Origin: Apostichopus japonicus | Taxonomy: Eukaryota > Echinodermata > Holothuroidea > Aspidochirotida > Stichopodidae | Direction of reading: 5' to 3' | NCBI RefSeq assembly: GCF_037975245.1 | Contig: NC_092572.1 | Coordinates: forward strand, 1,153,501 to 1,217,500 | DNA length: 64,000 nt | The notes under the pieces: model-generated | Told to the model about the DNA's origin: nothing | What the model saw: the letters and a program-made list of their open reading frames with translations, nothing else | Databases searched by the model: none | Shown: positions 1,571 to 38,623 of the stretch, in pieces | Layout: every line of letters begins with the position of its first letter | Numbering within the stretch: the first letter of the stretch is position 1 | Translations under genes and position numbers: made by a program

Positions 1571-3538
1571 AATATATTTACAACTCATTATGCAAATTTA
1601 CAAATTACTCCTAACTACATCATATTAGCTACGAAATTGTTCAAACTGTTCTGCTTTAATACACACGTTATCGTTAACCATGCGTCATTTAAACCTTTTT
1701 TTTGTTTATGTCAGCTAAACTGAGTTTAAGCTTGAGAGTCAGTTAAATGGTATACATCTCTCCAAAATGGATTTTTACCTGGGATTACTTCTGCACGTTC
1801 ATCACTATAGTGATATAGGTATATACAACTTCGTTTACAATTAAAAGAAAATTTTTGTAGCATATTTTCACACTTACACTTAGAGATTTGTCATATGGAG
1901 ATTGGTAAATAGTGCAAATCATGCGCATTAGGACCGATATTAGTGTCTCCTGTGGAAACGCTGGGATCCCAAGTGATTGTTATTCGGCTAAAAAGGTTAT
2001 TCAAGTTCAAGAGCTGTCAGAGTTGGAAAACATATCAATTCAATGAATGCAAAGTAACGCATACATAAGATTCTGACCTTGTATGTAGATGTACTTTAAT
2101 AAATACAATCAACAAACCGCATGTTGTGGAATTACAGTTTCATTCGCGGTCATCATCGGTCAATATTTGATAACTGTGTATACGTATTATCTCAAAATAA
2201 CCAGCTCAGATGTACTTCATGGCTTTGTTCGTGCACACACCTTATTAAATTCAAGGTCCCTGGCCTGGTTTGTGAATGTCGTGCTCATTTAAGTCAATAG
2301 AACTTTAAGTTTCAAAATCTTGTAAAAACAACAACTCCAAATTGAACTTGGATGTCATACATAGCTGTACTTTGCAATATCCGTAATAAGTAAAATGGCG
2401 TTTGTATTGTAGAAATAGCAAAAATGTCATTCGAGGTCAAAAGATGTTCAATGTCTAAAACTCTTTCAATTTATACACATTCCTCACAAATGTAATTGTT
2501 GTAATAACAACTTTGTTAGTACCGTGAACGCTCTACATTTTGCAGGGATCAAGGGTCAGTTCAGTTAAATCTAGCTTAATGTCTTAAAAACATGTCATGC
2601 AAACACAGTAAATGCTAAAACGAATCACACAGCCTTTTGGTTTGCGTTATGGTTATTTCAGACTGCCACAATGCCTCATCATGAACGTTGGTCCACTAAA
2701 ATCTGCAAAAAACTATCTCAATATTTGTATAACCCCTGATTGTTCAAGTTTTGTGAAGTTAAATGTCCATGTGTTAAAGATTTACTGCGTACCAATTTAC
2801 CAATATTGACAAAAACAATTCCTTAAGCAATGAATCGTTTATCTTGAAATGTTGAATAAACAAGTGATCAAACAAATTTTTGATCAAGTATGATGCGTAT
2901 AGCATATATTATCTTAATTATAATGTACCCTTTGAGGTATCCGTCTACACTTGTCGATCTCAAACATAATGTTTCTATGTTAATTTCTTTACTTGTATCT
3001 TCTGTCACTTTATTTCCATATCAGGCATTTTATATCTTACTTAAGGACCATCGATATGTTGTGGCTGACCTTTGTGAAGTGTTTGGTCTGAAAATCTGAC
3101 AAAGAAGAAGAAAGAGGAAATACGTCTTATTTTATGTTTGATAATACGCATACATTGTTCGATACCGAGATTATGAGATAAAATGGTTATTGCGGAAAAT
3201 ATACTTACAATGACGTTATTCCTTAATTGCAACAGCAGTGTATTTGTATCAAAAATGAATTTGAATTATGCATATATCGTGTTAACGAAGAAAAGGAAAG
3301 CAGTTCCCACAATGCTAGAAGCCTTTACATTTCTTATATCTCAGATATAAATACATGAATAAAGACATACACACACATACAAATATATATATATATATAT
3401 TTATATTTACATATATATATAATTATGTATATATTTTTTATGTATATATTTATATATATATATAGAAAGAAAATATAGATATAGAAAATATATATATATG
3501 TATATTAATTTGTTTATCTTTGTTGGAATAATACTTAC
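1571..3538. other. Intergenic sequence; nothing convincing
   Basis: Only short chance frames on both strands. It includes an imperfect AT-rich microsatellite at about 3,380-3,510. The 3' end of the minus-strand gene, with further LRR exons or a terminal exon and UTR, should lie here if intact, but I could not identify it. Confidence 0.5.
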
Positions 3539-3815
3539 TTTACTGTGTTACATTTTTTAAATGCAGTTTCTGTTATAGACTTGTAATCATTGTAGTTCTC
3601 TGATAAGCGAATGTTGTGAAAGACCAGTAGCTCAGTGACCGTTGGTAAATATTTCATCAGACGGAGAGGACAATCACCATATATTTCCAGAGTTTTAAGC
3701 TGTCGCTGTTGGTATAAATAACATAGTGTATAGTTTCCCATTGTATTGTCTAACGGCGATAAGCTAACAGTACACAGTGACGGAGGAAAGATATTCAAAG
3801 CTCTCATTCTCCTTT
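3539..3815 (-). CDS. LRR-like exon of the minus-strand NACHT gene (candidate)
   Basis: The minus-strand open frame reads through segments such as LKTLEIYGDCPLRLMKYL followed by PTVTELLVFHNIRL, which have the spacing of leucine-rich repeats. The 3' boundary is a strong donor (AAA|GTAAGT, read from 3,538 downwards; exon ends in phase 2). The 5' boundary is probably the AG after a long T-tract near 3,815 (phase 2). The frame stays open beyond both boundaries, but the flanking residues look like intron translation. It sits downstream of the NACHT exon on the same strand, where NLR proteins carry their LRRs. The NACHT exon ends in phase 0, so at least one exon between them is missing from this annotation. 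I infer it belongs to the same gene; the LRR match itself is by eye. Confidence 0.5.
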
Positions 3816-5013
3816 TTGCAAAAAAAAAAGAACATATCGGTAATTTCGTCAATCCTGCATCAATATCAAAGCAAAGTATTAGGCCAAACATTTGTGATTT
3901 GTGCAATTTTAAAGCAAACTCTAAAGTTCAACTTATCTTACTTAGTACAATTTATTATGCGACCACGGAACGGATGAAGTTTTGCATATGCATATGGTGC
4001 CAGGGGCAAGCATCGTTCTACGGTAGTGATATTACTGTGCACTTTAAAAGGTCTAACCAATCCTTGATGTCTACCAATGTATAATAATATGAGCAATTAC
4101 ACGCATAATAACGTACAGCGCGAGTACGAATGCTTTGAATTCTCCCTTTTACACTGTCGTTAGCGGTTGCATATGGCAATGTCATTTCTCGGAATCCTCT
4201 ACGTGTCTCACTTCATCATGATAGGGCAGAAAACTGACATTCAGGCTGTTTTGGCGCGAGGAATGGGCAAGTTGGAATCGTTTTGGGGTAAAACATTATA
4301 ATGATTTTTCGTGGCGTGCCAATAGTTTTCTTTCCAGCTGAAGTCGTAAAATACAAAAAGCTTTCATACGGTAACAGCTGACTTTATTTCTTGCTCAATT
4401 TGAAAAAGTTCATTAAGCCTTTGTTGTTGTTAAATGTTTTATTAAACTGATTTAGTTATGAAGCATCTGACATATTCGTAATATGCAGGTCGAGAAAGTA
4501 TAGAAATTATACTGCTAAATAATATCTGAATGAGTGCACTGATGTCAACGCAAATTTTCTCTCATGTAGTTATATATTATGTGATATCTTTTCTGATATG
4601 ATTAATCCTAGTCACTTCCTCAGAAACTTTATCAAAACTTTAAATGACATGATCCTTACGGCTTAGACTGAGTTGCAGTGCAAATGTTCACTTTGTATTC
4701 ATGACTATTTCATGGCGTTTAATTTACGAATTCTGACATTTCAGTTATGCAGTCATAAGTTACGAAAGCCCTACATCTTTTAACCAGTTCAAGGCAGTTT
4801 CGTGACATTTTTTTTCACACGTGCACTTGTATATGCACCCACACATACGTTCATTCCCAACTGTAATCATTTTCATTTGAATCCTAACTCCATCAGTGCT
4901 GTAGTACTAACCCCCATCAAACTAACATAGACCGTGCAACAATTTAGTACCATTTTTGCAGAGATTTCTTCCCTGTAACGTACATGAAAGAAAAAAAAAT
5001 GATAAATACTTAC
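3816..5013 (-). other. Presumed intron(s) of the NACHT gene
   Basis: Lies between the NACHT donor and the LRR-like exon. No further exon could be supported by eye, although the phase mismatch between the flanking exons predicts one. Confidence 0.4.
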
Positions 5014-6024
5014 GTCATTATTATTGAGCTCTTGCCACAAGTGCAGTGTTGCTTCTTGGAAATAATCATCTGTTGTGCGCCTGAACACTAACTGCTTCTG
5101 ATGAAACGTTTTAGCTCGTTCCTTGTATTCATTCTTATCTTGAAAGAATGCCTCAAGTAAACATACTAATATATCAAAGTTACCAACTTTCTCAAGTTCA
5201 TTCCATTTGGACTTCGTGAATGTCATCAAATGCCTAATCGTGTCTTTCTGTAAAACATAACTGACAAACAACTGTGCAATTAATGGAGATGAATATCTAC
5301 CATCAAGGGTTTCATTAAACTTTTCTTCAATATAAAATTTCCAAGTCTCTGAAATATCTTTTATAGAATTTTCATCCACAGACAAAGCTCTTGCAAAGAA
5401 TCCCTGTCTCTGTAGATCGTTAAACCCAAGAAGTTTTACTGTTGTTAATTTATCTTTAGATTCTTTCATGTCCTGCGAGGCATCTTCTAGGTTACGATAG
5501 GTTATCCAAATTTTCATTTTCTTGTACTGATCAATGTCTTTACCCATCAAGAGCTGTTTCACAGTCAATCCGTTCGTATTGTCATTATTCTGTGTAGTAT
5601 TATGAAACCGATCCAAATTGCTACGACCATCTAACATGACAATGCTCCTTTTATTTTGTAATATCATACGTAGGCTGTCAAGCGTAACCGAATTATTGTC
5701 AGATCTCAACGAATCCGCCAGTTCTTCTAATATGTTAGAGTCTATAGATAAATACTCAAGTTGAAGGTATATCAAAATCGCATCTTGCAGAATTTCTCCA
5801 TCCATCCACTTCTTTGTCATGGTTCGAAATAAACGTGACTTGCCACTACCAGACTCGCCAATAAATAACACACGTTTATCCTTAGGGTCCTTGAATAATG
5901 CCGCAAGCAGTTCATCGACAGTATTCATCGTTTTGTTGCTTCTGTCTGTATACGTTACTTCGTACTGACAATCGCCACACCAATATTCTCCATAGGGGAT
6001 GTAAATCTGCTTCAAACTTTCCAT
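5014..6024 (-). CDS. NACHT NTPase exon (NLR-type receptor)
   Basis: An open frame of 337 codons up to a strong donor (GAC|GTAAGT, intron starting at 5,013). A further 46 codons to a stop at 4,873 are read-through into the intron and include poly-F from a T-tract. Numbering from the ATG at 6,024: Walker A GESGSGKS at 56-63, Walker B-like IVMLDG at 128-133, sensor-1-like KIWITYR at 171-177, and a GFNDLQRQGFFARAL block at about 200-214 that is typical of NACHT domains. NACHT proteins are STAND NTPases that oligomerise on nucleotide exchange and act mostly in innate immunity. The ATG need not be the true start: the AG inside codon 3 (exon from 6,016) would accept a phase-2 intron and match the phase-2 donor of the TM exon, but its pyrimidine tract is weak. 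An unseen exon could also intervene. Walker B lacks the usual second acidic cluster directly after LDG. Confidence 0.85.
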
Positions 6025-6966
6025 AAACGTATCTATCGTTAAATTTGAAAAATACCGCTATTAAACAGCTGCCAACAAATTTATTCAAATAGTTAACTAT
6101 AAATTATTGAATATTATTTGTTTGTTAAGAATGTTTTATGATAGTAACATGTGGCACATACCTATAAATACAGAAAAATGATAATCACATTCGACTATTG
6201 GTAATTAACACAATCGAGCACAAGCATGTTACTTTATGACGAATTAATCAAAGGGAACGATAAGTAAGCAACATTATAAAGGTCCTCTTACAGAGTTGGT
6301 TAGCAATCTGGTTGGGTCTTATCACACTTGATAAGCTCGCTACACGATTTCATATGAAATCAACATTTATCTTAAAATCAAATAGAAATGGTAAACAATG
6401 CCACAAAAATGATGTGATGGTGAAGTAACTGTAATATTAGCTACCATGCATTTGAAAGTAAAAAGTGCACGCATGTATAAGAACGATGTTACACTTTTAC
6501 AACATATTTTTCATGTCGCAAATTCTTGTGTCAAAGAGCTTACAGCAGATACTTGTTAGCTTAGTTTAGTAGAAAAAAGGATCAGGAGGGACACTCAGGT
6601 CCCCATCAAGGACCCTATAGGAGATAATAAAACGGAAGACACAAATACTCAGACCCGGTTACAATGCTTAAGGTGCTTGTTCAGAGCATTCTTAAACCCA
6701 TCATTGTTGGCTCTGTATGAACATTTTCAACGAGCCTAAGTCAATAACAAACTTCGCAACGTTCAACATAAGCCTTAAACAAGCAAATAGCATGCGAACT
6801 ATCTGCATCTTAAGAATGATATTTTCCCGTGTTTTGTGGACAGTGCTAACCTTGCCAAGATTTTTATTATATGTATACAAAGAGCGTTTTCTTGACTGTC
6901 AATGTCGTTGGAAGAAGGTTTTATTATGTATAAAATTGATAAAAGAAGAATATATCAGTTAAATAC
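6025..6966 (-). other. Presumed intron between TM and NACHT exons
   Basis: AT-rich, with no frame on either strand that looks coding. A death-fold exon, common before NACHT in NLRs, was looked for and not seen. Confidence 0.4.
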
Positions 6967-7096
6967 CTTTTTTTTTTACAACACCGTATTAGAAAGATAC
7001 AAACAACAACCACCGCTGAAATCACAACCGCAATCGCAACCACTGCTCCCCAAAAATACAGTATTAGTTCTATCTTCTTTCCTTTATCACAGATTC
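6967..7096 (-). CDS. Transmembrane exon of the Ig/NACHT gene
   Basis: On the minus strand a 130-nt segment is bounded by an acceptor (TTTTGATTTTAAG|GA) and a donor (AAAAG|GTATTT). Its frame gives a short polar stretch (ICDKGKKIEL), then a clean single-pass helix of about 23 residues (core FWGAVVAIAVVISAVVVVC), and then a basic stop-transfer tail (IRCCKKK). It enters in phase 1, as TM exons after Ig exons usually do, and leaves in phase 2, which matches a possible phase-2 acceptor at the NACHT exon. The hydrophobic core followed by R/K predicts an extracellular N-terminus and a cytoplasmic C-terminus. It is too short to stand out as an open frame. The helix is seen directly; membership of this gene is inferred from strand, order and phase. 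Confidence 0.7.
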
Positions 7097-8790
7097 CTTA
7101 AAATCAAAACTTACAAAGACATTATTAAGAAATTTGTTTTGAAAGAACACTAACAGGGTTGAGATATGCATGAGCTAACACAGAACAAGTCTGATGAATG
7201 GTATATTTGATTATAAACCCTCGACTTATTATTTTGTTCAGTAAATCAAATCTCGTAAAATTCTCAGCTACTGATGAATATTATAGTAAAGTATTATTTT
7301 GGCAGCAGTCATAGAAGAAAGGGCTACTCCAGATATGCAACCTGTCACTAATAATATAGTTTACACCTTTTGACTAAATTTCTAAAACTCCTGTAGCATT
7401 TTGGGTTAAGACCATATTGTTGTAAATTGCATTATTATAACATTCAATGGGGTTTAGGCAAGGCACACGTGCGATCACCAAAAGTAGGAAACTGGTTCAG
7501 TAGGGGCAAAATTGAATACCACTGTGGAAGAATTTGACTACTAATGGTGTAAGCTTGCCCTTTGGTTTCAAACACACACGAACAATTTATTAGCTAAGGT
7601 TTGTGTCTAGGGTTACCGGAACTAATTTTAAATTTACCTTTTCCTCATAATGCACAATTTGAAGACGGCTTATGATACCAGTGCAGTATCCCCCGCCATT
7701 AACTATAAATTCCTTAATTTGCCTCTGTTTAAATCCTCCCGCCCCTTCCCACCCCAAGAAGCCTTACTTGAAAAGGTCGGGACAAACATTTGAAGTTTAT
7801 CAAGTGTTACCATCATAATTTTTCCTTTAGGATTAGAGCTATTCTTACATGGAAATAAATTATGAGTTGAATATGCCTCAGATCGCCCCAATTAATGTTT
7901 ATTATTGTATTTTTGTCTAGGGGATTTTTGTCTCATATGACTCGACTTCCATTATTCCATTACAGCCCATCCTTTGTAAAATCAATAATTTGCCTCATTG
8001 TCCTTCCAGAAATATTCACATACCCTATCTTAATCAGTCGCAGTCAATCCGGAATCCACCCCCCCCCCCCCAAACGTAGTATACCTTTGGAATACCGTCT
8101 CGCATATTATCTTGCATATTTCGGCAATGCAATTTAAGTTCTTAGGTTGTTATCACCTTTATACATGGCTGCTTTTTTCTGTAGAAGTTCATCGTTCTGT
8201 CAATGTCCACGGACAATTTTTCAAATTTGATAAGACTAAGGCATGTATTTACTAATCATTATCAATTTGACGATTTTCTTAGACCTATTTTGTATATTTC
8301 AATTACGCCCTTTGCTCAAATGTAACTGCTTGCAGAATGGTACTAAACTTTTTTTTTCAAAAAGAGTGTCCTAACATACTCATACAAGTCATATACAACG
8401 CTGCAGCTTATTCATTGTCGACATCGAAGTTGAATATATGTTACGAACAATTAGTATAAATATGCTAAACGTTAAAACATATCCTGTTATCATTTTGATA
8501 TTTGCGAATAATAACAATGTTAAGAAGGCGCCATTAAAAGTTCAACAACTTTTCTCGGGATGCCTTCTATATACATATTGTATTATGTATTGTAATATAT
8601 AGCCATTTATAAGAGTTTCGCATTAGCGGTTAAATATCATTACTTTCAAACAACGGGACGAAATATTAAATTTATTGTTTTGTTTTCCTAAACTTAAGAT
8701 AGATGACAACGTATAACTTGGTTGTAAGTAACGATGCCTTCAGCAATTGGTCTTAAAGAATTGGAATTCGTAGAAAACGAGAGACTATAT
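7097..8790 (-). other. Presumed intron between Ig and TM exons
   Basis: No second Ig exon was recognised. Contains a poly-C tract at about 8,057-8,070. Nothing else seen. Confidence 0.4.
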
Positions 8791-8794
8791 ACTC

Positions 8795-9123
8795 CTAAAA
8801 CGTGCTTGGTTGAATATGAACTGTTATATTTTCTTTGGTCACCATCTGCTCATCATTCTTTGCATAACAGACACAGGTGTGCGTTTGATTACACGATGTA
8901 TCATATGATACGAAGAGAATAGTACTGTATATGTTCCATGTTTCACTCTTTTCATCCTTGATTTTTAACTGTGTCTCGCTGTACTCACCTCCATAAGAAA
9001 CCAAACCAAATTTCTCCTTGTTCAAGAAGCAAGTTAAAGCTGTTTGTTCATTTCGTTCGAGTTGTTTGATGCAATCTTCACAGCTATTGCATTGTTGAAC
9101 CGTAGGACACTGAGTGGGTGTCA
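8795..9123 (-). CDS. Ig-like domain exon of the minus-strand receptor
   Basis: The minus-strand frame from an acceptor at 9,123 (CTTTTTCTCCTATTCAAG|TG, strong pyrimidine tract, phase 1) encodes an Ig-like fold: a B-strand cysteine in TALTCF, a canonical F-strand in QTHTCVCYAK, and a final G-strand-like ENITVHIQ. An unusual Cys-rich stretch (CPTVQQCNSCEDC) lies at the N-terminus. Potential N-glycosylation sites include NQT and NIT. Phase 1 matches the signal-peptide exon upstream. The 3' boundary is uncertain: the frame ends in a stop at 8,795, and where a donor is expected (after HIQ) the sequence is CAACCAAGCACG, which could be a mutated GGTAAG. So either a donor was lost, giving a truncated secreted Ig protein, or I have missed the true donor. 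Confidence 0.65.
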
Positions 9124-10611
9124 CTTGAATAGGAGAAAAAGAGTGGTGCTTGTAAAATGATGTCCATGACACAAAGCAACGGAAAAACTTGTATATTCCT
9201 ATAATGTACAAGCGGCAGTGTATCTTATCATATAAATACTCCACTAATAGTCGGAGTACAGACATCATTTAACCAATTGATTATTGTGGTCATGATTAAA
9301 TAACCAAAAATCTATTAACCTGTATAAACTTGTTTTGAATAATGTGATGAAAACATCGAAAAGTAATATATGTAGCAGCATTCCTTTAGTTAGAAATTTG
9401 ACCTCGCGACCATCAGTTTGTTTAGGCTCAGTGACTTCAGACATATTTTGAATGTTTGTGGTGTTGCTGTAAGAATGCTAAACTTGCAGAGGAACATCTT
9501 CAGAATATTAAGGTTGAAGATTAGGTCCAATAACAATCTTACTCATTTAAGCTACAAAATGCTTGATCAGTTACCGTGGGTCGAATATCAATGATATTAC
9601 CACGTTAACGACTGGGCTAGGCCGACTCAAACAAAGCTATGTGTTCTGCAGTGAAATTACGTTATATTACGTTAATTCAACATACCATGCATGTAACAAA
9701 CATTCACACATCCACAGTAAAACATATAAGTGTTCTAGCCTGGGTCGAATTAATTGGTTGGCAAAAGTATGCACTCATCTACTAAGTTAGCTACTGTCAT
9801 CAAAGCTGTGATCGTCCTTATTATTACACCCATGAACACAACAAATCCACTTCATTTATCAGCTTTCGCGCTGTGTCTGTTATAAATATGACTTGGCCTG
9901 TACATGTTAAGGGGTTGATTGAGCCATCTTGTGACGTACTATTTTATTGTAACGTACATGGTTTTACACTTATTGTTAGTGTATCAATACGTGTTTGCTG
10001 ATAATGTCGGAAAACAAGCTTCCAAAGCAGATCCAATGTTGCTTATTCTTAATGGACTCTGACCAGGTGGGTTTAATAGAGAAATGCTGATGCAATCGAA
10101 AAAGAGATTTATTTTCTGTTGCCTTTATCACGCGAACAATTTACCGTAAAAATACTGCGACCGCCCGTATCAGCATGTTCATTACACAAAAGTAACCTAT
10201 ATTTACTGGTATCGTCCACTTTTTTTACCATATTCTTACAGCTCATCACCATCTTGATTGCAGAATCGACAGAGAATTGCTGTCCAAACGCAGCTAATTG
10301 GACAAAGTTTAACGATATTCTTCTAAAGGTTGTTGAGATTTATTTGAAACAATGTGTGAAACACGCAAGTTTCCAAATATAGCTCCCCTGTAAAAAAATG
10401 CTCTGCTGATTTTCTCGCCTTCGTGTTTCGGCACTTCTCGGTTTGCCCAGCATTTCTTAAAATCTTTATTATACAGGTCAATCAGGGAGCTCAAATTCCC
10501 AACTGCTTTAGGGTTAATTGAAAAAAGAAGTGCAAAATTAACTTGCTTAAATGAAGCAATACGAAACGCATAGAAAATCGAAATTGGTTAATGTTCATAC
10601 AAAGAAGTTAC
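9124..10611 (-). other. Presumed first intron of the Ig/NACHT gene
   Basis: Only short, unconvincing open frames on both strands. Nothing else seen. Confidence 0.4.
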
Positions 10612-10669
10612 CTGCACCGACAACGCCGAAGAGAATAATCATGGCGTACAACATTTTGGGAATAGACAT
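10612..10669 (-). CDS. Signal-peptide exon of the Ig/NACHT gene
   Basis: From an ATG at 10,669 on the minus strand, 19 codons give MSIPKMLYAMIILFGVVGA, a typical secretory signal peptide with a hydrophobic core and a small-residue (V-G-A) cleavage context. A donor follows after one extra G (GCAG|GTAACT, phase 1). Signal-peptide exons ending in phase 1 just before Ig exons are the usual architecture of cell-surface Ig receptors, and the phase matches the Ig exon acceptor at 9,123. The exon is too short to appear as an open frame. I infer that it starts the minus-strand gene. No TATA box or transcription start could be assigned. Confidence 0.6.
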
Positions 10670-12453: not shown

Positions 12454-12832
12454 ATGGCGCATTCAAAGTTGTTGTCTTATTATTTAGCCTGTCTGTTTTT
12501 GATAATGTGCAAACGTGTAATTGGAGTTTGTTATGACAATTATGGCACCCAGCCATTTCCGACCATCGAGTGCAACGCCTCGCTTAAGGATCCTGTCTGC
12601 CTTACTTGCCCGGTTTATCAAAAATCTGACGTGGAGTGGTACATAGCTAAGAATCGCATTGCTTACGGAAACTTTTATGTTGGTGAAGTTAATGACGTAA
12701 CCGTAAATACATGCCATGAGACAAATGCTTCGCTTAGTTTTAAAAGTTGCGACCAGGAAAGAATATCTTCAGTTCAATGCCAACAGGCAAAGAAAACGTT
12801 GGCAGACTTTACAGTTATATGTAAAATAAAAG
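12454..12832 (+). CDS. Signal peptide + Ig-like domain, first exon of an Ig-receptor kinase gene
   Basis: The ATG at 12,454 opens a frame with a signal peptide (hydrophobic core YYLACLFLIMC, cleavage probably around VIG-VC). An Ig-like domain follows with a tryptophan in VEWYIAKNRI (C-strand) and several cysteines (CLTCP near the B strand, then CHET, KSCDQ, VQCQQ and VICKIK). N-glycosylation sites NAS occur twice. The exon closes at a good donor (AAAAG|GTGAGT) in phase 1; the open frame continues 12 codons into the intron and should not be counted. It is head to head with the minus-strand Ig/NACHT gene, which has a separate signal-peptide exon. Ig-ectodomain tyrosine kinases (FGFR/VEGFR-like) start this way, and kinase exons follow on the same strand. 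Binding partner unknown. Confidence 0.7.
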
Positions 12833-13414
12833 GTGAGTTAATTATATACTTTGTCAGATTGACTTACTAGCTGTATTAGAAAGGTGAAAGGAAAATTTTC
12901 GCAATTTAAGATATAATAAGACTTGAGTTTACACTTTGTATTTAGCTCGATAAATATTAGGATTATTTCCTTCTGCAGACAAAGTTGGAAGTCTAGGAAA
13001 CCCACAAGGAAAATAAATTTACAGTTACAAGCATAATGCAGTTTCCTTCTTTTATAACCTGAAACCCGATGCACACAGAAAAGACAGTTAAATCTGTAAA
13101 TCTTAACGTTTTGTATCAACGTGAAAACTGGATCGTAATATAAATCGGTAGCATGTGCTATTAGGATCATAGTAAGAACTGAGGATATGTGTAATTCCAA
13201 CATATCCTGTTGTTTGGAATAAGATTAAGCGTAAGATTTAAAGCAGTTACTGTAATCTCTGTGTGAATCGGCTACACGTAAACATTGATCTGAAATATTA
13301 TGTGCCTATCGTGTACTGGAAGAGACAATATTTTTAAGTAGCCATACTAGAAAGTATGTGAGTTCGGCGAGGAGTTCTTTACGAGATTTTGTTTTCTTGA
13401 TTACATGTCGTCAG
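12833..13414 (+). other. Intron between Ig1 and Ig2 exons
   Basis: Bounded by GTGAGT and a CAG acceptor, both in phase 1. No other features seen. Confidence 0.55.
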
Positions 13415-13729
13415 AATTTGTGTTTCCAGAAAGAATTATCATCTTAGGAGATAGCGTACACGAGACGAAAGATGGCTATTTAACTGTTCAAAAATCCAGT
13501 GATATAAGTCTCCGCTGCATTATTCAACATGTGTTGCAACCTGTCAAAATAGTGTGGCTTGTCGACGACGAAATTATCTTGGAGGAAGACTTTGCATCTG
13601 ATTCTAATGAGACAACCAATATTTCGCTGTCACTTGATGTTGATGCAAGCAATATCAACAAGTCTATCACCTGTGTGGCATATGGACAGTATATGCGAAA
13701 TATGACTCGGGTGATATTTCTTATTAAAG
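13415..13729 (+). CDS. Second Ig domain exon of the Ig-receptor kinase gene
   Basis: A 315-nt, phase 1-1 exon between acceptor TGTCGTCAG|AA and donor TTAAAG|GTATGG. It encodes a textbook Ig fold: B-strand ISLRCII, C-strand tryptophan in VKIVWLVDD, F-strand KSITCVAYG, and closing G-strand TRVIFLIK. Predicted N-glycosylation sites are NET, NIS, NKS and NMT. Phase symmetry allows it to be spliced directly to the preceding Ig exon. The ATG at 13,405 lies in the intron and is not a start. The final strand parallels ENITVHIQ in the Ig exon of the neighbouring minus-strand gene, so the two ectodomains may be related; that is inference. Confidence 0.75.
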
Positions 13730-13879
13730 GTATGGGAAAATTACAACGTTGTTCAATGGATATCCTAATAAGAAAGTCAATATTTAGTACAGTGAAGACA
13801 TTAAAATTACAAGTATTAATGATAACCAATCAAATAGTTAATAGAACAGCAATTTTTAGTTTTGTTCCTTTAGTGACAG

Positions 13880-13900
13880 ATACAGCGTCTGAAGAAACTG
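13880..13900 (+). pseudogene. Dead duplicate of a candidate 21-nt microexon
   Basis: ATACAGCGTCTGAAGAAACTG preceded by GTTCCTTTAGTGACAG but followed by TT instead of GT. It is a direct repeat of the segment at 14,006-14,026, 126 bp downstream, with matching flanks. Confidence 0.35.
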
Positions 13901-14005
13901 TTAATTTTCCTTTCTATTTAAACTAATAATCAATTTTGGACGTTCAAAAGGGAAACCGCATAATATAATAGAACGATATTTTTATTCTTGTTCTTTAAAT
14001 GACAG

Positions 14006-14026
14006 ATACAGTGTCTGAAGAAACTG
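14006..14026 (+). CDS. Candidate 21-nt microexon (stalk region)
   Basis: A good pyrimidine tract and acceptor (TTGTTCTTTAAATGACAG), 21 nt, then GTAATT. Read in phase 1-1 it adds DTVSEET (plus the last split codon), an acidic linker suited to the stalk between Ig2 and the membrane. Phases agree with Ig2. The upstream copy at 13,880 supports that this block was duplicated. Without transcripts this remains a candidate. Confidence 0.35.
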
Positions 14027-14230
14027 GTAATTTTCTTTCCATTTAAAATTTAAGCTCATTGTTGAGGTGATCAACGATCTTATCAAAATGATATATATCT
14101 ATTTTTAAGTTGTAATAATTCTGAAAACACGGAGAACCAAATGTTCTTCTATTTGTCATGAACATAAATTCAAAGTTTTTAACGTCAAATGGTGCATTCT
14201 AAGATAATGTTTGAAAATAACTTGATACAG

Positions 14231-14278
14231 GTAGCTCGAAAATCAATATTGTGGTAATTATTCCCTTGAATAATTTAG
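14231..14278 (+). CDS. Possible remnant of a transmembrane exon
   Basis: 48 nt between TTGATACAG and G|GTATAG, phase 1-1, encoding a short hydrophobic run (SSKINIVVIIPLNNL). The position, between stalk and kinase, is right for the membrane exon, but 8-9 hydrophobic residues are too few to span a bilayer. It may be a truncated exon or chance. Confidence 0.22.
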
Positions 14279-14790
14279 GTATAGTTACCTGAATCGTTAT
14301 GGGAGGTGCAGATGTACAGTAAGTATGTTAAACAGGATGGGTGCTGCCACTTTTAAGATTGCTCATACAAAAATTCAAATGGTGCCATCTGAAGCACATT
14401 TATACTATAATTCTGGTCTTATAGTCTAAGTTAATACAAATGGAAGGTTTTGCAAATATATAATAATACATTCAATATTTCCCCGCATATTTAGTACATG
14501 GTTTGAATCATTAGGAGAGAACCAAAGACGAAAAAAGAATTGTATAATGAGGGAGGAGGGGGGGGGGGTGTTGGTTACCTTGAGCTCATTGAAGCCGTCT
14601 TCTTTGTAGGTGTTTGTTCGTCAATGGTGCATGCTGATGGTTAAAACTATAAATAAGAATATATAAGCTGCTTTAAACCCAAGGTTTGTCTAGCCGATAC
14701 TTTGTTTGAAGTTGCACATAAAGGGAGAGTAGAGGTGGTTCAGCCAGTGATACAATGAATTAAATATATACTTCTGTCGTTTGGAGGCAG

Positions 14791-14997
14791 AGGACAATAA
14801 CACTCCTGGTTCGTCTTTATGAAGCGATGAGCTGTGGAACCCTCTACGACCATGTAATGAATCATTATCGGAAACGATCTCGTCTTAGTAAAACGATCAG
14901 AAGACAGGTATCGTATTTTCACCGACCTGTTTTGAAGGAATTTCTTAACTTTGCGGTTAATATTGCCCAGGCAATGCAATATCTTGCTTCTCACAAG
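14791..14997 (+). CDS. Tyrosine-kinase exon: hinge, helix D, helix E
   Basis: A 207-nt phase 0-0 exon after TTGGAGGCAG and before CACAAG|GTAAGT. It starts TITLLVRLYEAMSCGTLYDH, matching the beta-5/hinge of receptor tyrosine kinases (LYLV-EYM--G-L-D-L). After a basic insert it continues LKEFLNFAVNIAQAMQYLASHK, matching helix E (-F--QIA-GM-YL----). The frame begins before the first ATG (14,827), so that ATG is internal. Beyond the donor the frame runs YHSLTTGIRLI; this aligns loosely to H-R-D-L-A-A-R-N-V-L with the catalytic HRD lost. It may be a degenerate catalytic loop read through without an intron, or intron sequence. No N-lobe exon (glycine loop, VAVK) was found upstream. Confidence 0.65.
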
Positions 14998-15504
14998 GTA
15001 AGTTATCATTCTTTAACAACTGGTATTCGATTAATAGCGTGCATTCTGAGACACCAAACGTGTTTTATATTTGTTGCCATTTGATGCCATTTGTGCATGT
15101 AATATTAGGTTCCATTGTCTCAGATCAGTTCTTGTGCAACTAATTGTGTACACATTTTATAATATCTTTTAAATGAAATTACATATCACAATACTTATAT
15201 ATTCCAAGTAATGGCAAAAAAAGACGCATGAATGGATCCTTTCAATTCATCCATTTTCTCATAGTTTTGCCATCCAGCACTCTCTTTGAGAAAGGTACTG
15301 ATGACGCCCCAAGGCTCCTGCAAATTATACGATGTTTATCCAAATAACTTATGTATGGAGAGAATTAAACATTTGATGAAAAAGGTAAAGCTATAACATT
15401 TAAACGTAAGTTAATTCAAAGTACTTATAATTCATACTTGACCCACCCTTTTTGTTTTCACTTATTTAAAAAAATATAATTTATTTATAATATATTTATA
15501 TAAA

Positions 15505-15536
<32 letters not shown>

Positions 15537-15691
15537 AATATAGAGTAGGTTGGCGTCTATCTTGGCGCAGAGTGCTCTATGTCCATTGGACAGAGCGTAA
15601 TATATGTTCTCTCAAGAGTTGTCTGAAGATCGCTATAACGCGTGAAACTCCGAGTAACAACTACTAGTGTTCCACTAGTCTCATCTAGTAT

Positions 15692-15751
<60 letters not shown>

Positions 15752-15786
15752 GTATATATAAATTCATATTTCTACTTTGTACACAG
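14998..15786 (+). other. Intron region lacking the expected HRD/DFG exon
   Basis: The kinase catalytic loop and DFG motif should be encoded between the flanking exons, but no HRDLxxRN- or DFG-like frame was seen. It contains a MITE-like element flanked by (TA)n (15,480-15,760). Confidence 0.45.
15541..15695 (-). mobile_element. Small (TA)n-flanked element, copy 1
   Basis: About 155 bp beginning GAGTAGGTTGGCGTCTATCT and ending CATCTAGTATCAAC, sitting inside (TA)n on both sides. The reverse complement recurs at 17,728-17,893 in the same (TA)n setting. No coding capacity. The two copies are in opposite orientation 2.2 kb apart. This copy has lost most of the internal palindrome present in the other. 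Confidence 0.75.
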
Positions 15787-15897
15787 AAAAATCCTCCTAC
15801 GGCATGGATGGCTACAGAGATATTTCTTCTTGACAAGTACTTTCTCAAGAGTGATCTTGGAACTTTTCCGTTTTCTTGTGGGAGGTTTTGACGATTG
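15787..15897 (+). pseudogene. Tyrosine-kinase exon (P+1 loop to helix F), frameshifted
   Basis: After the acceptor TTGTACACAG the frame reads PPTAWMATEIFLLDKYFLKSD, matching the receptor tyrosine kinase P+1 segment (P--WMAPE---D--YT-KSD). At about 15,856-15,858 one base is missing. In the next frame the exon continues WNFSVFLWEVLTIG, the expected V-W-SFGV-LWE--T-G, up to a donor (ATTG|GTAATA). Without the shift the frame hits a stop within about 13 codons. The conserved proline of APE is also replaced (ATE). This is the clearest sign that the kinase is inactivated, or that a sequencing error sits here. Confidence 0.75.
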
Positions 15898-16034
15898 GTA
15901 ATATTTTATAAAGTGAATTACTTTATGATCCATCATTAAAATTATTGCATTACCTGTGAAACTTGAAACATTTCAGACAAGTGCAGTTACTTTCATTACT
16001 TTGCCGCTGACATATGTTTGCATTTTATTCAAAG

Positions 16035-16131
16035 GTAAAATACCGTTTGCCAGTATCTCACAAGAAGGTATCAAAGAGAAGGTTCTTGAGAGTTTTATGT
16101 TGTCAAGACCGGCAATTTGTCCAAATAATAT
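16035..16131 (+). CDS. Tyrosine-kinase C-lobe exon (helix G region)
   Basis: A 97-nt exon between TTTATTCAAAG and AAT-AAT-AT|GTAAGG (phase 1 in, phase 2 out). It encodes KIPFASISQEGIKEKVLESF then MLSRPAICPNN, corresponding to G-TPYP-IS-E-----L--GYRL-RP--CP of receptor tyrosine kinases. The incoming phase 1 matches the donor of the frameshifted exon, and the outgoing phase 2 matches the next exon. Confidence 0.68.
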
Positions 16132-16935
16132 GTAAGGAAAACATCTATGTTATAGTTATGTTCTTTAATCAAGTGCGTTAAGTGGTTACTTTAATTACTA
16201 TTGATGCATGCATAGCGATAATTTCCAAAATGACACAGCTAAAACGATGTACTCTTCCTTAGAATTATGAAACACTTTTCAGCAACTCAAGATTTTTGTG
16301 AAGATTTAGTATTACGTAATACACTATCATTGGTTAGATGACTGTAGTTCTCTGTGCACGACTGTTTCTCACAGGTCCAATTGATATTGATATAATTGAT
16401 ATACAATATTGATTCTTACCTGCCATTATTATAAAATCTTTAAGTATTTTTGAAATCTCACTTAAAGGTTTACTGTAGAGCTAAGAAGGGTAACAAAAAC
16501 AATTATAAGAAAGGATTACACATATAACTCTATGAATACATTCGGGTATTACAGCAGCAGTTTAAGGGAATAATTGGTAATTATTGTTTTGTACCCATTG
16601 CTTCTTTTACTTGACGCTCAGCTCTAAATTTTACTTGTATTTTATGCCAGTTCGTATGTTCGCTTAGCTAAATAATATGACTTAACTTGGACATTTTAAA
16701 TAATATAAGACGCTGGTGGTAAGAATACAAGAAACGAATGGAGATAATTAAAATCAAACAATATGGCTCATTTTATTTTTGTAGGAAATCACATGCCTTA
16801 AGTTTAATTGCTTAAATTCGCATTTAGTGAGCCCGAGGTTAATAATAATTAACAATCATCCCTGACGTTTTGCTGTAATAATTTTTTTAGGTGTCAGTCC
16901 AATCGTGCTAGATTTCATTTCTCAAACATTATCAG
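16132..16935 (+). other. Intron between kinase C-lobe exons
   Basis: AT-rich, with no other features recognised. Confidence 0.5.
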
Positions 16936-17038
16936 GTTTCAAGTTATGGTGTCTTGTTGGCAAAAGGACCACACCCTGCGACCTTCGTGCAGTGATATAT
17001 TGCAATGTATTCGATCAGAATATGAAAAGATGCATGAG
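16936..17038 (+). CDS. Tyrosine-kinase C-lobe exon (helix H/I)
   Basis: A 103-nt exon after TTATCAG and before GAG|GTAGGA (phase 2 in, phase 0 out). It encodes FQVMVSCWQKDHTLRPSCSD followed by ILQCIRSEYEKMHE, a close match to the conserved end of tyrosine kinases (Y--M--CW---P--RP-F--I---L). The CW and RP signature residues are intact. The frame opens before the ATG at 16,946, so this is not a separate small gene. A terminal exon with a stop was not identified. Confidence 0.72.
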
Positions 17039-17660
17039 GTAGGAAAATATATGTATTCAGGGATCTCATTTCACAAATGTGCACGGAAAATTGTTTTAAT
17101 ACTTCCGAGTCTGAAAATATTCAATCATTTTGAAAAGTAACATACCTACTCAAATTGAACAAACTTTGCAGATGTTAAACTAAGAACTATCGTATTTTAA
17201 TTAAACAGTAATTGTGTTGATTTCAAAAAAATATAACAATATATATTTGCCCCATTTTATCAATGTTGAAGTTAGTCACTTCTTCCTTGTAAATGGCGCA
17301 TTGTATAACTTCGGTTTCGTTCAGAAATATCAAGACTGTGATTATTCAGAAATCCCGGAGTGATTCTATGTCGATCATCGAATCAGTGAATGGTGTTTAT
17401 GTATCGACGAAGTCTGAGTTCATCGTTTTTAGTTTCAAATTGCTCGTAAAATTTTCTCGGGTAAAAAAATACCTGGGATTGAAATATTTACCGTTAATAG
17501 GTACCTTCCGGGATAACCAGAGAGAGCAACATAACATACAAATGTTACGAGGCTAATTTTGTTTCAGCAACGTGAAAAACAATATCTTGGTCACTGTTTG
17601 CACAATAAAACCGACACTTTAAGGAACTTTGTAAACGCTACAAGCTTTGCACTGATACTA
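17039..17660 (+). other. Region after the last recognised kinase exon
   Basis: A terminal exon or 3' UTR is expected here. The 87-codon open frame at 17,293-17,556 shows no recognisable motif and I do not call it. Confidence 0.35.
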
Positions 17661-36100: not shown

Positions 36101-38276
36101 GAGTATATTTTCTTAAACATTTCATATTTAATGACTGCGTTACTCGTTCCAGGCGCTTTTGATGATCATTGTAAAATATTGCTATATAATGACTCAACGA
36201 AGTATACTTTTCTTAGATTCATACAAACAACACTTTTTAAGAGCTGACGTTTCTAAATAAAAATCAACGCCTTGATGACAACGTATAAGCCAAATTATGT
36301 GCTCTAGGCTATCTATCAAGCTACAAATAATATGAGAGGTTTATAAAGATGGATTATACACAATAGGTATCAAGCTCTTAACAATAGAATAATACTGAAA
36401 ATGAAACAGATTTTACATTTAATAATATATTATACGCAGGTTAAAACGCTCTTCAAATAATAAAAGTGCATGTATAATCAGTTCAAGTGGATAAAACTAT
36501 TTTTTTACGAGACAGTGGAACTTTACCATAAGCTCTTTTCATACTTTATAGTTTGTCCTTCAGCAATGAGTGTTACGAGTTAGATTGCAATCTATAGTCA
36601 CGATGGGAACGTAGATGACAGATATATTCGATGTAGGGAAAACCTGTTCCAGAGAAATATTCCGGTACAATCTGGTTAGATGTAACTTATTATGTATGTA
36701 CATTCTTTTAGCTGAGGCATTTTAAAAAGGACGTGTAACACGCTTTATTTAACTCATTCCCGATTACATATTTGTCTAACGTCATAAGTCTTACCTATCT
36801 CATTACGACTTATGCGATACCAATACAGAACAATGTAGTCTCTTACATGTAAATTAGTATGTTCTTTTGACAAAGCACCTTAAAACTAAATTAATAAAAT
36901 ACACAACAATTACAGACAAATGTACTCATCTTCTCTGTTTTCTTCTCTTTATTGTCATGTTTTCCTATATCCCTTTTATGTTATGGAGGGTTACTGCATA
37001 TCTGCTCACATAAGCTCTTTTTGAGCTTCACCTTCTTTGGTATTCTCATATAAGTTTAATTATTATACCCGTATGACCAGTTTGAGAAATAAATGTGTGA
37101 ACTGTATTCATTTGATGCCAACTAAAGTGTGACGAGAAACAAATGGGTTGTCTTAAAAGTCGACTGTACTAATGCAATGTGGACCGGTGAAGCTCTACTA
37201 GTATGGGATATGTCTTTAATTTCGAGGACAGTGAATAAATACCTTAGGATACAGATAATAGTTGTCCCTTCCTCCCCCTCGCATCCTTTGCTGTCGTTCT
37301 GTCCAGTGATTCATTGCTTACTGTCGTGTTCCAAAGTCCATATGAGACAATCAGCGTCCTGAAGTAATACATCTAACGTCGGTCTCAAATCAACGTCAAG
37401 TCGTTATTACAATTGAAGGTTGATATCAGTGTGATCATTTACCCATGAACGTAAGCCTTGAGAAACAATACAGGGAGAACAAGAAAAAATCGTTCTCTAG
37501 TTGTGTAACTTTCGTCTTCATTCCCATATTTATATAATATGAAGCTAATAATATGATACCCGCTGAAGTTGGATTTCTTCCGGAAACGTATTACTGTGCA
37601 TATACGGGCACATATTATATGCTAGCTATGCGGCCGAGCACCCCATGGTTCCCAGAAAGGGTTGAATGATATTTTATATATCTTCATTTTCATAATATGT
37701 TTTGTGCACTCACGTCAATACGCTTCGCCACTTGGACCCCAGGGGCTTTGAAATACCTCCCATAGAGTTTTAAAGGAGAAATAAACCCTAGTTTTTTTGC
37801 ATCCATTCTTACGTTTTGACAGATGGTCTTTCAAGTAAAAGCAAAAGAAAAGCATAAAAATCCCTTCTTTGAGGTGAAAAAAACGATTTGAATGTAGTTC
37901 ATGTGTCGCGACATTTTGTTTGAATTGAGCCAGTTCCCGGATGTACCGTGACGAAAGCGAGCCGCTTCGCGTATTTCAAGACAAAATAGTTGCCAATCCC
38001 TAAAATAATTAGAATTGTACTTTCAACAATAGTATTGAATAAAATATCGATCAAAAAATATCTTTTGTCTTTATTGATCTGTAAAAATGCTTAAAAAGTG
38101 TGTGAAATTTGTTATTGTAACGAGTATCAGTAGAAATATAAATTTTCAAGGATTTGATTTTTAACGTGTTTAAATTACATTGCTTTCAACACGCATACTC
38201 AGTCCTAGTGATAGCGTTACCTACGTCCATCATTGCACTCCAATTTACTGTCGAGCAAATATCTTCAAAAAAGAAA

Positions 38277-38623
38277 ATGGAAGCCTTTGGATTGGAATCG
38301 TATCTTTTCGAACCAGAATATTCAGAGGAAGAACTGATATATCGAGAGGAGGAGTTTGTGCAAAAAATCAGTCCGCGACTGTTGGTGATGTTGGGTCGAA
38401 TTCCGTTGCTGATACGAATACCGGTTCCGCGGGACACTGCGAAGAATGGTGTATGTGTGCACTCTGTTCGCCATTGGAAAGCGACAAGGGGAGGGTATGC
38501 TGCTATTGCTTGTTCGCGGAAAAAGCTTTGTTGAACGCAGGAGAATGTCTGACCAACAGACATGAATTCTCCCAGATTTTTCTGCAGCTAGTTCATTTAG
38601 AACTCTGTTTTGTAAATTTCTAG
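38277..38623 (+). pseudogene. P2X7-intracellular-domain-like protein fragment, frameshifted
   Basis: From the ATG at 38,277 the frame begins MEAFGLESYLFEPEYSEEEL, like the FEPE(Y)-acidic start of invertebrate proteins annotated P2X7-like. After about 27 codons the similarity moves to the next frame, which encodes EEWCMCALCSPL, RVCCYC, ECLTNRHEFSQIF and LQLVHLELCFVNF, then a stop at 38,623. The WC-x-C-x2-C ... CC pattern followed by a hydrophobic tail matches the zinc-binding cytoplasmic ballast domain of P2X7, which occurs in many invertebrate proteins without any channel part. No channel domain is present. A frameshift near 38,360 separates the two parts. Domain assignment is by eye. Confidence 0.6.

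Follow-up and report, generated by a model that had tools for sequence, protein, structure and literature searches.

Does the sea cucumber Apostichopus japonicus carry NLRs that are anchored in the membrane, with an immunoglobulin (Ig) part outside the cell and a NACHT domain inside, and is the locus examined here a working example of one? The locus lies on the minus strand of a 64,000-nucleotide stretch of contig NC_092572.1 (C12:1153501-1217500; this whole stretch is called the window below, and its positions are counted from its first letter), where an earlier note, made from the letters alone, had proposed a membrane receptor with an Ig ectodomain, a transmembrane (TM) helix, a NACHT domain and leucine-rich repeats (LRRs). 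Searching the genome (671.6 Mb in 35 contigs) for relatives, we find that the locus is very likely, with a probability of about 0.8, one of a tandem array of Ig-TM-NACHT genes for membrane-anchored NLRs, with an LRR-like exon. The proposed receptor stands as a gene type, on the strength of linkage within the array, but the window copy itself runs out of frame from TM to NACHT, and because these phases clash we assign the locus to the Ig-TM-NACHT family by descent and not as a proven working member.

The exons as read in the window are as follows (donor scores, here and below, come from a consensus table drawn from general knowledge and not trained on the A. japonicus genome):

10669-10612, minus strand: signal-peptide-like exon of 58 nt (19 codons plus one base), left in phase 1 at the donor CAG|GTAACT
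9123-8806, minus strand: Ig exon, entered in phase 1; a join to the TM exon would use a weak phase-1 GC donor at 8806
9123-8989, minus strand: shorter alternative of the Ig exon, ending in mid Ig domain at a near-perfect donor GAG|GTGAGT (phase 1, score 8.19)
7096-6967, minus strand: TM exon, entered in phase 1 and, as assembled, left in phase 2; adjoins a run of ten A
6032-5014, minus strand: short NACHT exon of 339 open codons, entered in phase 1 and left in phase 0
3705-3539, minus strand: LRR-like exon, entered in phase 0 and left in phase 2

Linkage of Ig, TM and NACHT exons in the array and its relatives

With the window NACHT as query the genome returned 68 matches, and those at C12:1.13-2.21 Mb merged into 27 NACHT loci, the window included, all of them on the minus strand (one copy other than that of the window carries an internal stop); the nearest full-length match to the window NACHT has 41% identity. 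The window Ig exon gave 18 matches at E 0.1 or better, 11 of which fall in the array (the window and 10 relatives), and every one of these 11 lies 947-3339 bases upstream of a same-strand NACHT. Under uniform random placement within the array, the chance of such linkage is 2e-12 for the 11 matches and about 3e-11 for 10, with the window left out. Two array copies were read in most detail:

Paralog A (L034, L032), minus strand of the array: IgV, Ig, TM, NACHT and LRR-like exons
Paralog B (L033, L035), minus strand of the array: signal-peptide, IgV, Ig and TM exons and a long NACHT exon

Three others (L036, L037, L038), read in part, have a TM exon directly before NACHT with phase 1 in, and L038 also shows an Ig exon with a phase 1 donor; a TM exon therefore stands just upstream of NACHT in all five non-window array copies read. 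In paralogs A and B, L036 and L037 the best-scoring TM donor is in phase 1, as it is, though weak (0.13), in L038. Relatives that lack the oddities of the window copy at TM and Ig do exist in the array. Since the array Ig exons are linked to NACHT in 11 of 11 cases and TM precedes NACHT in all five copies, we regard the Ig, TM and NACHT exons as one gene type, and the exons in the window are real and very probably members of it. Separately, a long tandem repeat of short units (TDGR in translation) lies upstream of the TM exon in L036, on the minus strand at about 3129-3438.

Exon rules were drawn from relatives throughout the genome. A Pfam NACHT search, in which 106 of 487 candidates were scored, yielded at least 106 matches over the cut-off, and 20 of the 106 were hand-picked and 10 kb of DNA examined for each. 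Ig exons lay upstream of NACHT on the same strand at seven of these 20 loci (L011, L012, L017, L020, L024, L027, L028) and a death-type exon at five (L014, L018, L019, L025, L026), while eight showed neither (L009, L010, L013, L015, L016, L021, L022, L023; L009 and L010 have under 2 kb upstream). The Ig and death-type profiles were built partly from the same loci that they then scored, yet when one locus was left out at a time the Ig exons of all six profile-building loci were still recovered (last Ig exon E 1.7e-21 or better). Pfam domains above the cut-off were C2-set_2 in L028 and Ig_3 in L027, with V-set below the cut-off in both.

The splice phases of these relatives are consistent. At the last Ig exon the acceptor is phase 1 in 6/6 cases and the donor phase 1 in 5/6 (none in L011). 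A TM candidate lies between Ig and NACHT at seven of eight loci searched (none in L021), its phase-1 acceptor best or joint best in all seven, and the best donor is phase 1 in each of the five where one was read above the threshold. The NACHT exon is entered in phase 1 (8/8) and left in phase 0 at the exon end wherever a donor was read, and the first LRR-like exon is entered in phase 0 (7/7) and left in phase 2 in five of seven, the other two being without an above-threshold donor. The resulting pattern is Ig 1-1, TM 1-1, NACHT 1-0 and LRR 0-2.

Set against these rules, much of the exon reading of the earlier note holds. The signal-peptide exon leaves in phase 1 as claimed; a scan of both strands of the whole window for an ATG, a hydrophobic stretch and a phase-1 donor gave four candidate ATGs, of which 10669-10612 was the sole candidate on the minus strand between 12400 and 9124, and paralog B has a similar signal-peptide exon with a phase 1 donor. 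The Ig exon does enter in phase 1, at an acceptor at 9123 with a strong pyrimidine tract upstream, and its frame stays open as far as a stop at 8797-8795. Pfam finds no match for this exon, nor an above-cut-off Ig match for the equivalent exons of L028, L017 and L027, while by tblastn it matches paralog A. An Ig profile built from relatives, paralogs A and B among them, ranks it first (E 1.6e-5) among 1810 open reading frames (ORFs) of the window and L029, just left of it; without these two neighbours it comes second (E 0.14), after a plus-strand Ig ORF at 13351 (E 0.09). The TM exon at 7096-6967 is, as had been read, phase 1 in and phase 2 out, and the NACHT exon is recognised by Pfam at 37.2 bits (E 3.4e-9, cut-off 26.7).

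Two phase claims of that note give way. The possible phase-2 acceptor of NACHT is replaced by phase 1, in which relatives enter at the place equal to 6032, and the supposed mismatch between NACHT and LRR disappears, NACHT leaving in phase 0 at 5014 and the LRR-like exon entering in phase 0 at 3705, as in the relatives. From the window alone other acceptors would be possible for the LRR-like exon (phases 1 and 2, one of them more pyrimidine-rich), and that at 3705 was chosen because relatives use phase 0 there. To speak of LRRs in the plural was an overstatement: this single exon has no Pfam LRR match, is kin to paralog A by tblastn, and was found only through that near paralog and not by a profile of distant LRR-like exons, and a listing of motifs and ORFs only, as far as position 1 and over the 10 kb beyond, showed no recognisable further LRR exon. 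Nor was a death-type exon seen in the window or in those 10 kb, where a death-type profile from the same genome gave nothing under E 0.6 among the 1810 ORFs, other death folds being outside that search. A sequence search of the PDB gave no significant match (best E 0.26 and 0.48, to chains named NLR family protein 1 and NLRP1).

Departures of the window copy and rival explanations

A number of observations weigh against this assignment or against the window copy as a working member of the family. At E 0.1, no Ig match accompanies 16 of the 27 NACHT loci in the array, although one of them, paralog B, does have an Ig exon by profile, and about 3.9 kb upstream in L036 contain only a weak Ig-profile match (E 0.029). 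Seven of the 18 Ig matches lie on the plus strand of C7 at 15.58-15.82 Mb, with no plus-strand NACHT among the NACHT matches listed there. The window TM exon, used as a genome query, matches only itself, and a tree leaves the window NACHT unplaced (end branch 3.49, no supported set). Because death-type NLRs share the NACHT phases (acceptor in L026; donor in L018, L022, L025 and L026), phases 1-0 mark NLRs generally and are no proof of an Ig join by themselves. In the window copy the donor of the TM exon at 6967 (score -0.14) gives an exit in phase 2, against phase 1 into NACHT, and past the Ig domain there is no canonical donor, the only GT scoring above zero being in phase 0 and inside the last strand (1.46).

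The earlier note had remarked on the missing Ig donor, rightly as far as canonical donors go, and had overlooked both the donor at 8989 inside the Ig exon and the stop at 8797-8795. Ten GTs are listed for the TM exon, three of them in phase 1 with scores of -4.73, -7.03 and -10.73; even the best of these (exon end 6980) was judged too weak to serve. At the best-scoring splice sites the TM-to-NACHT join is thus out of frame, and no single open frame runs from Ig through TM to NACHT as assembled. Nor was a separate IgV exon, present in both paralogs A and B, found in the window with IgV profiles, whose sole match under E 0.1 was the known Ig exon. With a TM exon that ends in the wrong phase and an Ig exon that has no canonical donor, the window copy as assembled is probably not a full-length working receptor.

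Substitutions tell another side. Compared with paralog A by the Nei-Gojobori method, nonsynonymous divergence (dN) is below synonymous divergence (dS) in NACHT (0.50 and 0.81; 334 codons, 41% identity), in Ig (0.57 and 1.46; 102 codons, dS near saturation) and in LRR (0.53 and 1.50; 54 codons, dS near saturation), which indicates that the three exons diverged as coding sequence; together with the open frames this speaks against old decay of the window copy.

A pseudogene, a broken allele or an assembly error may underlie the oddities. In our estimate there is close to an even chance that this array member has recently become a pseudogene or is a null allele: the TM phase, the absent canonical Ig donor and the want of an IgV exon that both read neighbours carry all point this way, as does the internal stop in another array copy, whereas the open frames in all exons and the low dN (in a ratio that is rough where dS nears saturation) point away from it. 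The copy might instead be intact in the animal and make a full Ig-TM-NACHT-LRR protein, if Ig were spliced from the GC donor at 8806 and a base-calling error in the ten-A run accounted for the TM phase. That donor is in phase 1 and at the expected position, the NACHT exon of paralog A likewise ends at a GC-type donor (GAG|GCAAGG), and an intact gene would also fit the NACHT frame, open over 339 codons, and the excess of dS over dN in all three compared exons; but the site (AACCAA|GCACGT) is off consensus, and two oddities in one gene are easier to read as decay, which makes it doubtful that the window copy itself encodes a complete receptor.

Two further explanations take the Ig exon away from a full-length fusion. 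The locus might make alternative products, an Ig exon left unspliced to the stop at 8797-8795 giving a small secreted Ig protein, for which signal peptide and Ig frame are open throughout, or the donor at 8989, with its high score and with phase 1 on both sides, joining half an Ig domain to TM. Half a domain is unlikely to fold, however, and GT-AG words arise by chance in coding sequence, and we consider such products improbable. Still less probable is a pair of adjacent genes, one Ig and one TM-NACHT, with no fusion between them. The Ig exon that runs into a stop with no canonical donor and the 16 NACHT loci with no Ig match would suit two genes, but the phase-1 Ig donors of paralogs A and B and L038 fit the TM exon, all 11 array Ig matches are upstream of NACHT, and a fusion protein of this kind has already been published from a sea cucumber.

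Known receptors, the short NACHT and a possible role

The Ig-TM-NACHT membrane design to which we assign the locus is already known and is not new here, contrary to the unusual receptor design that had been suggested. AjNLRC4 of A. japonicus is described with an Ig-like domain at 31-132, an Ig domain at 251-353, a TM segment at 483-503, NACHT at 600-757 and a second predicted TM at 776-795; it is placed at the coelomocyte membrane, where its Ig part binds microbes and its inner part binds beta-actin, in connection with phagocytosis (PMC8699970). A further report, which gives MN607598, has the Ig part binding caspase-1 (PMC11932488). Like the window locus, AjNLRC4 has Ig outside, TM, and NACHT inside, and its TM and NACHT positions resemble a TM exon followed by a NACHT exon; it differs, by its published description, in two Ig-type domains and no LRR, against a single Ig exon and an LRR-like exon behind a short NACHT in the window copy. 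AjNLR-new (PIK48001.1) is likewise a membrane protein that combines Ig, TM and NACHT, and is described with two TM segments, NACHT outside and Ig inside (PMC13133943), a reverse topology against which the signal peptide and charges of the window locus argue. Both proteins were set beside the window locus by their published descriptions.

More distant parallels share parts of the design. Some NLRs of Chiridota heheva carry an Ig V-set domain (PMC8913654), joining Ig to NACHT as in the window, with no TM mentioned in the passage concerned, and sponge NLRs with TM have been reported (PMC12909245), joining TM to NACHT, with no Ig mentioned in the passage concerned. Passages on the pearl oyster describe NACHT and Ig families and no fusion (PMC9646362), and the A. 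japonicus genome report is cited for expanded NLR-type and tyrosine-kinase-receptor families (PMC13228809). In searches of open-licence PubMed Central papers, no title or abstract opening among those listed described the C12 array or the short NACHT form.

Within the same genome, the long-NACHT family (L011, L012, L017, L020, L024, L027, L028) resembles the window locus in having Ig then NACHT on one strand, TM between them where read, and the same phases; it differs in its Ig domains, as many as four spread over three exons, in the residues DE after LDG, and in its NACHT, about 20% identical to that of the window. The window NACHT exon has 339 codons and that of paralog A 378, against ORFs of 470-553 aa at seven of eight long-family loci (274 in L017), and LDG is followed to give LDGRSN in the window and LDGVSN in paralog A, while the long family has DE one residue on (e.g., LDGYDE). 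By profile alignment the window NACHT seems to lack about 150 residues after the NACHT core and before the end of the exon, perhaps the winged-helix part; taken by itself, the second piece of that alignment falls short of significance (-1.8 bits). In comparison with a canonical NLR (NACHT and LRR), the window thus offers one LRR-like exon, no death-type N-terminal exon, no DE after LDG and presumably no winged helix. The window NACHT scores 35.0 bits with a clean long-family profile and 13.8 with a death-type profile (best of 200 shuffles 6.3 and 2.4).

The predicted layout is a signal peptide, Ig outside, one TM helix and NACHT inside, followed by the LRR-like exon. Positive charge is greater after than before the TM in 6/6 array TM exons and in 9/13 overall, and from these charges and the signal peptide we infer a type I topology that would put the Ig part at the cell surface. 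By analogy with AjNLRC4, such a protein would be a surface receptor of immune cells, in which ligand contact through the Ig part may lead to receptor clustering and the cytosolic NACHT part may couple to cytoskeleton or cell-death proteins. Since the NACHT of this subfamily is short and lacks the acidic pair after LDG, little ATPase-driven switching would be expected, and the short form would more likely be a scaffold, partner or decoy beside full-length Ig-NLRs than a stand-alone switch. A bolder proposal, which we put forward tentatively and think unlikely as a whole, is that the array comprises about 27 fast-diverging surface NLRs on one strand, in which the short NACHT would be a cytosolic docking or decoy module with no ATPase switch under a variable Ig sensor; the array would then be an NLR-based counterpart of paired Ig-receptor clusters, with full-length Ig-NLRs as possible activating partners.

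These comparisons suggest that Ig-TM-NACHT is a family with exon rules and not a single odd gene, and that part of it may have lost features thought necessary for NLR switching. They also bear on the published conflict between Ig outside in AjNLRC4 and Ig inside in AjNLR-new, and genes in which signal peptide and TM charges agree permit a direct test of topology.

Neighbouring genes and other loci

Divergent from the NLR gene, a receptor-kinase-like gene occupies 12454-17040 on the plus strand of the window. It has Ig-type ORFs at 12454-12867 and 13351-13923 (the latter with Pfam Ig_3 at 18.2 bits, below the cut-off), and near 14776-14998 there is a kinase exon that scores 20.5 bits for PK_Tyr_Ser-Thr, below the cut-off of 23.1. 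By eye, more kinase pieces lie near 15787-15890 and 16937-17040, and the middle piece looks frame-disrupted. Divergent from paralog B, plus-strand Ig-type ORFs at 2905-3393 and 3499-3921 of L035 are weakly like the plus-strand Ig ORFs of the window (E 0.018 and 0.074), and Ig-NLR and Ig-kinase genes perhaps form a repeated head-to-head pair.

The seven weak relatives of the window Ig exon on the plus strand of C7 (15.58-15.82 Mb) make up a second cluster. Many strong NACHT matches lie at C12 27-34 Mb (e.g., L014), a second, larger NLR expansion; those loci that were read in this region and on other contigs have in common a death-type exon preceding NACHT. Elsewhere in the window, two overlapping frames occupy 38142-38620 on the plus strand, of which 38174-38620 matches Pfam P2RX7_C at 21.2 bits, under the cut-off of 23.5. 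Just left of the window, plus-strand ORFs at 5949-9428 of L029 look by eye like a reverse transcriptase of the long interspersed nuclear element (LINE) type.

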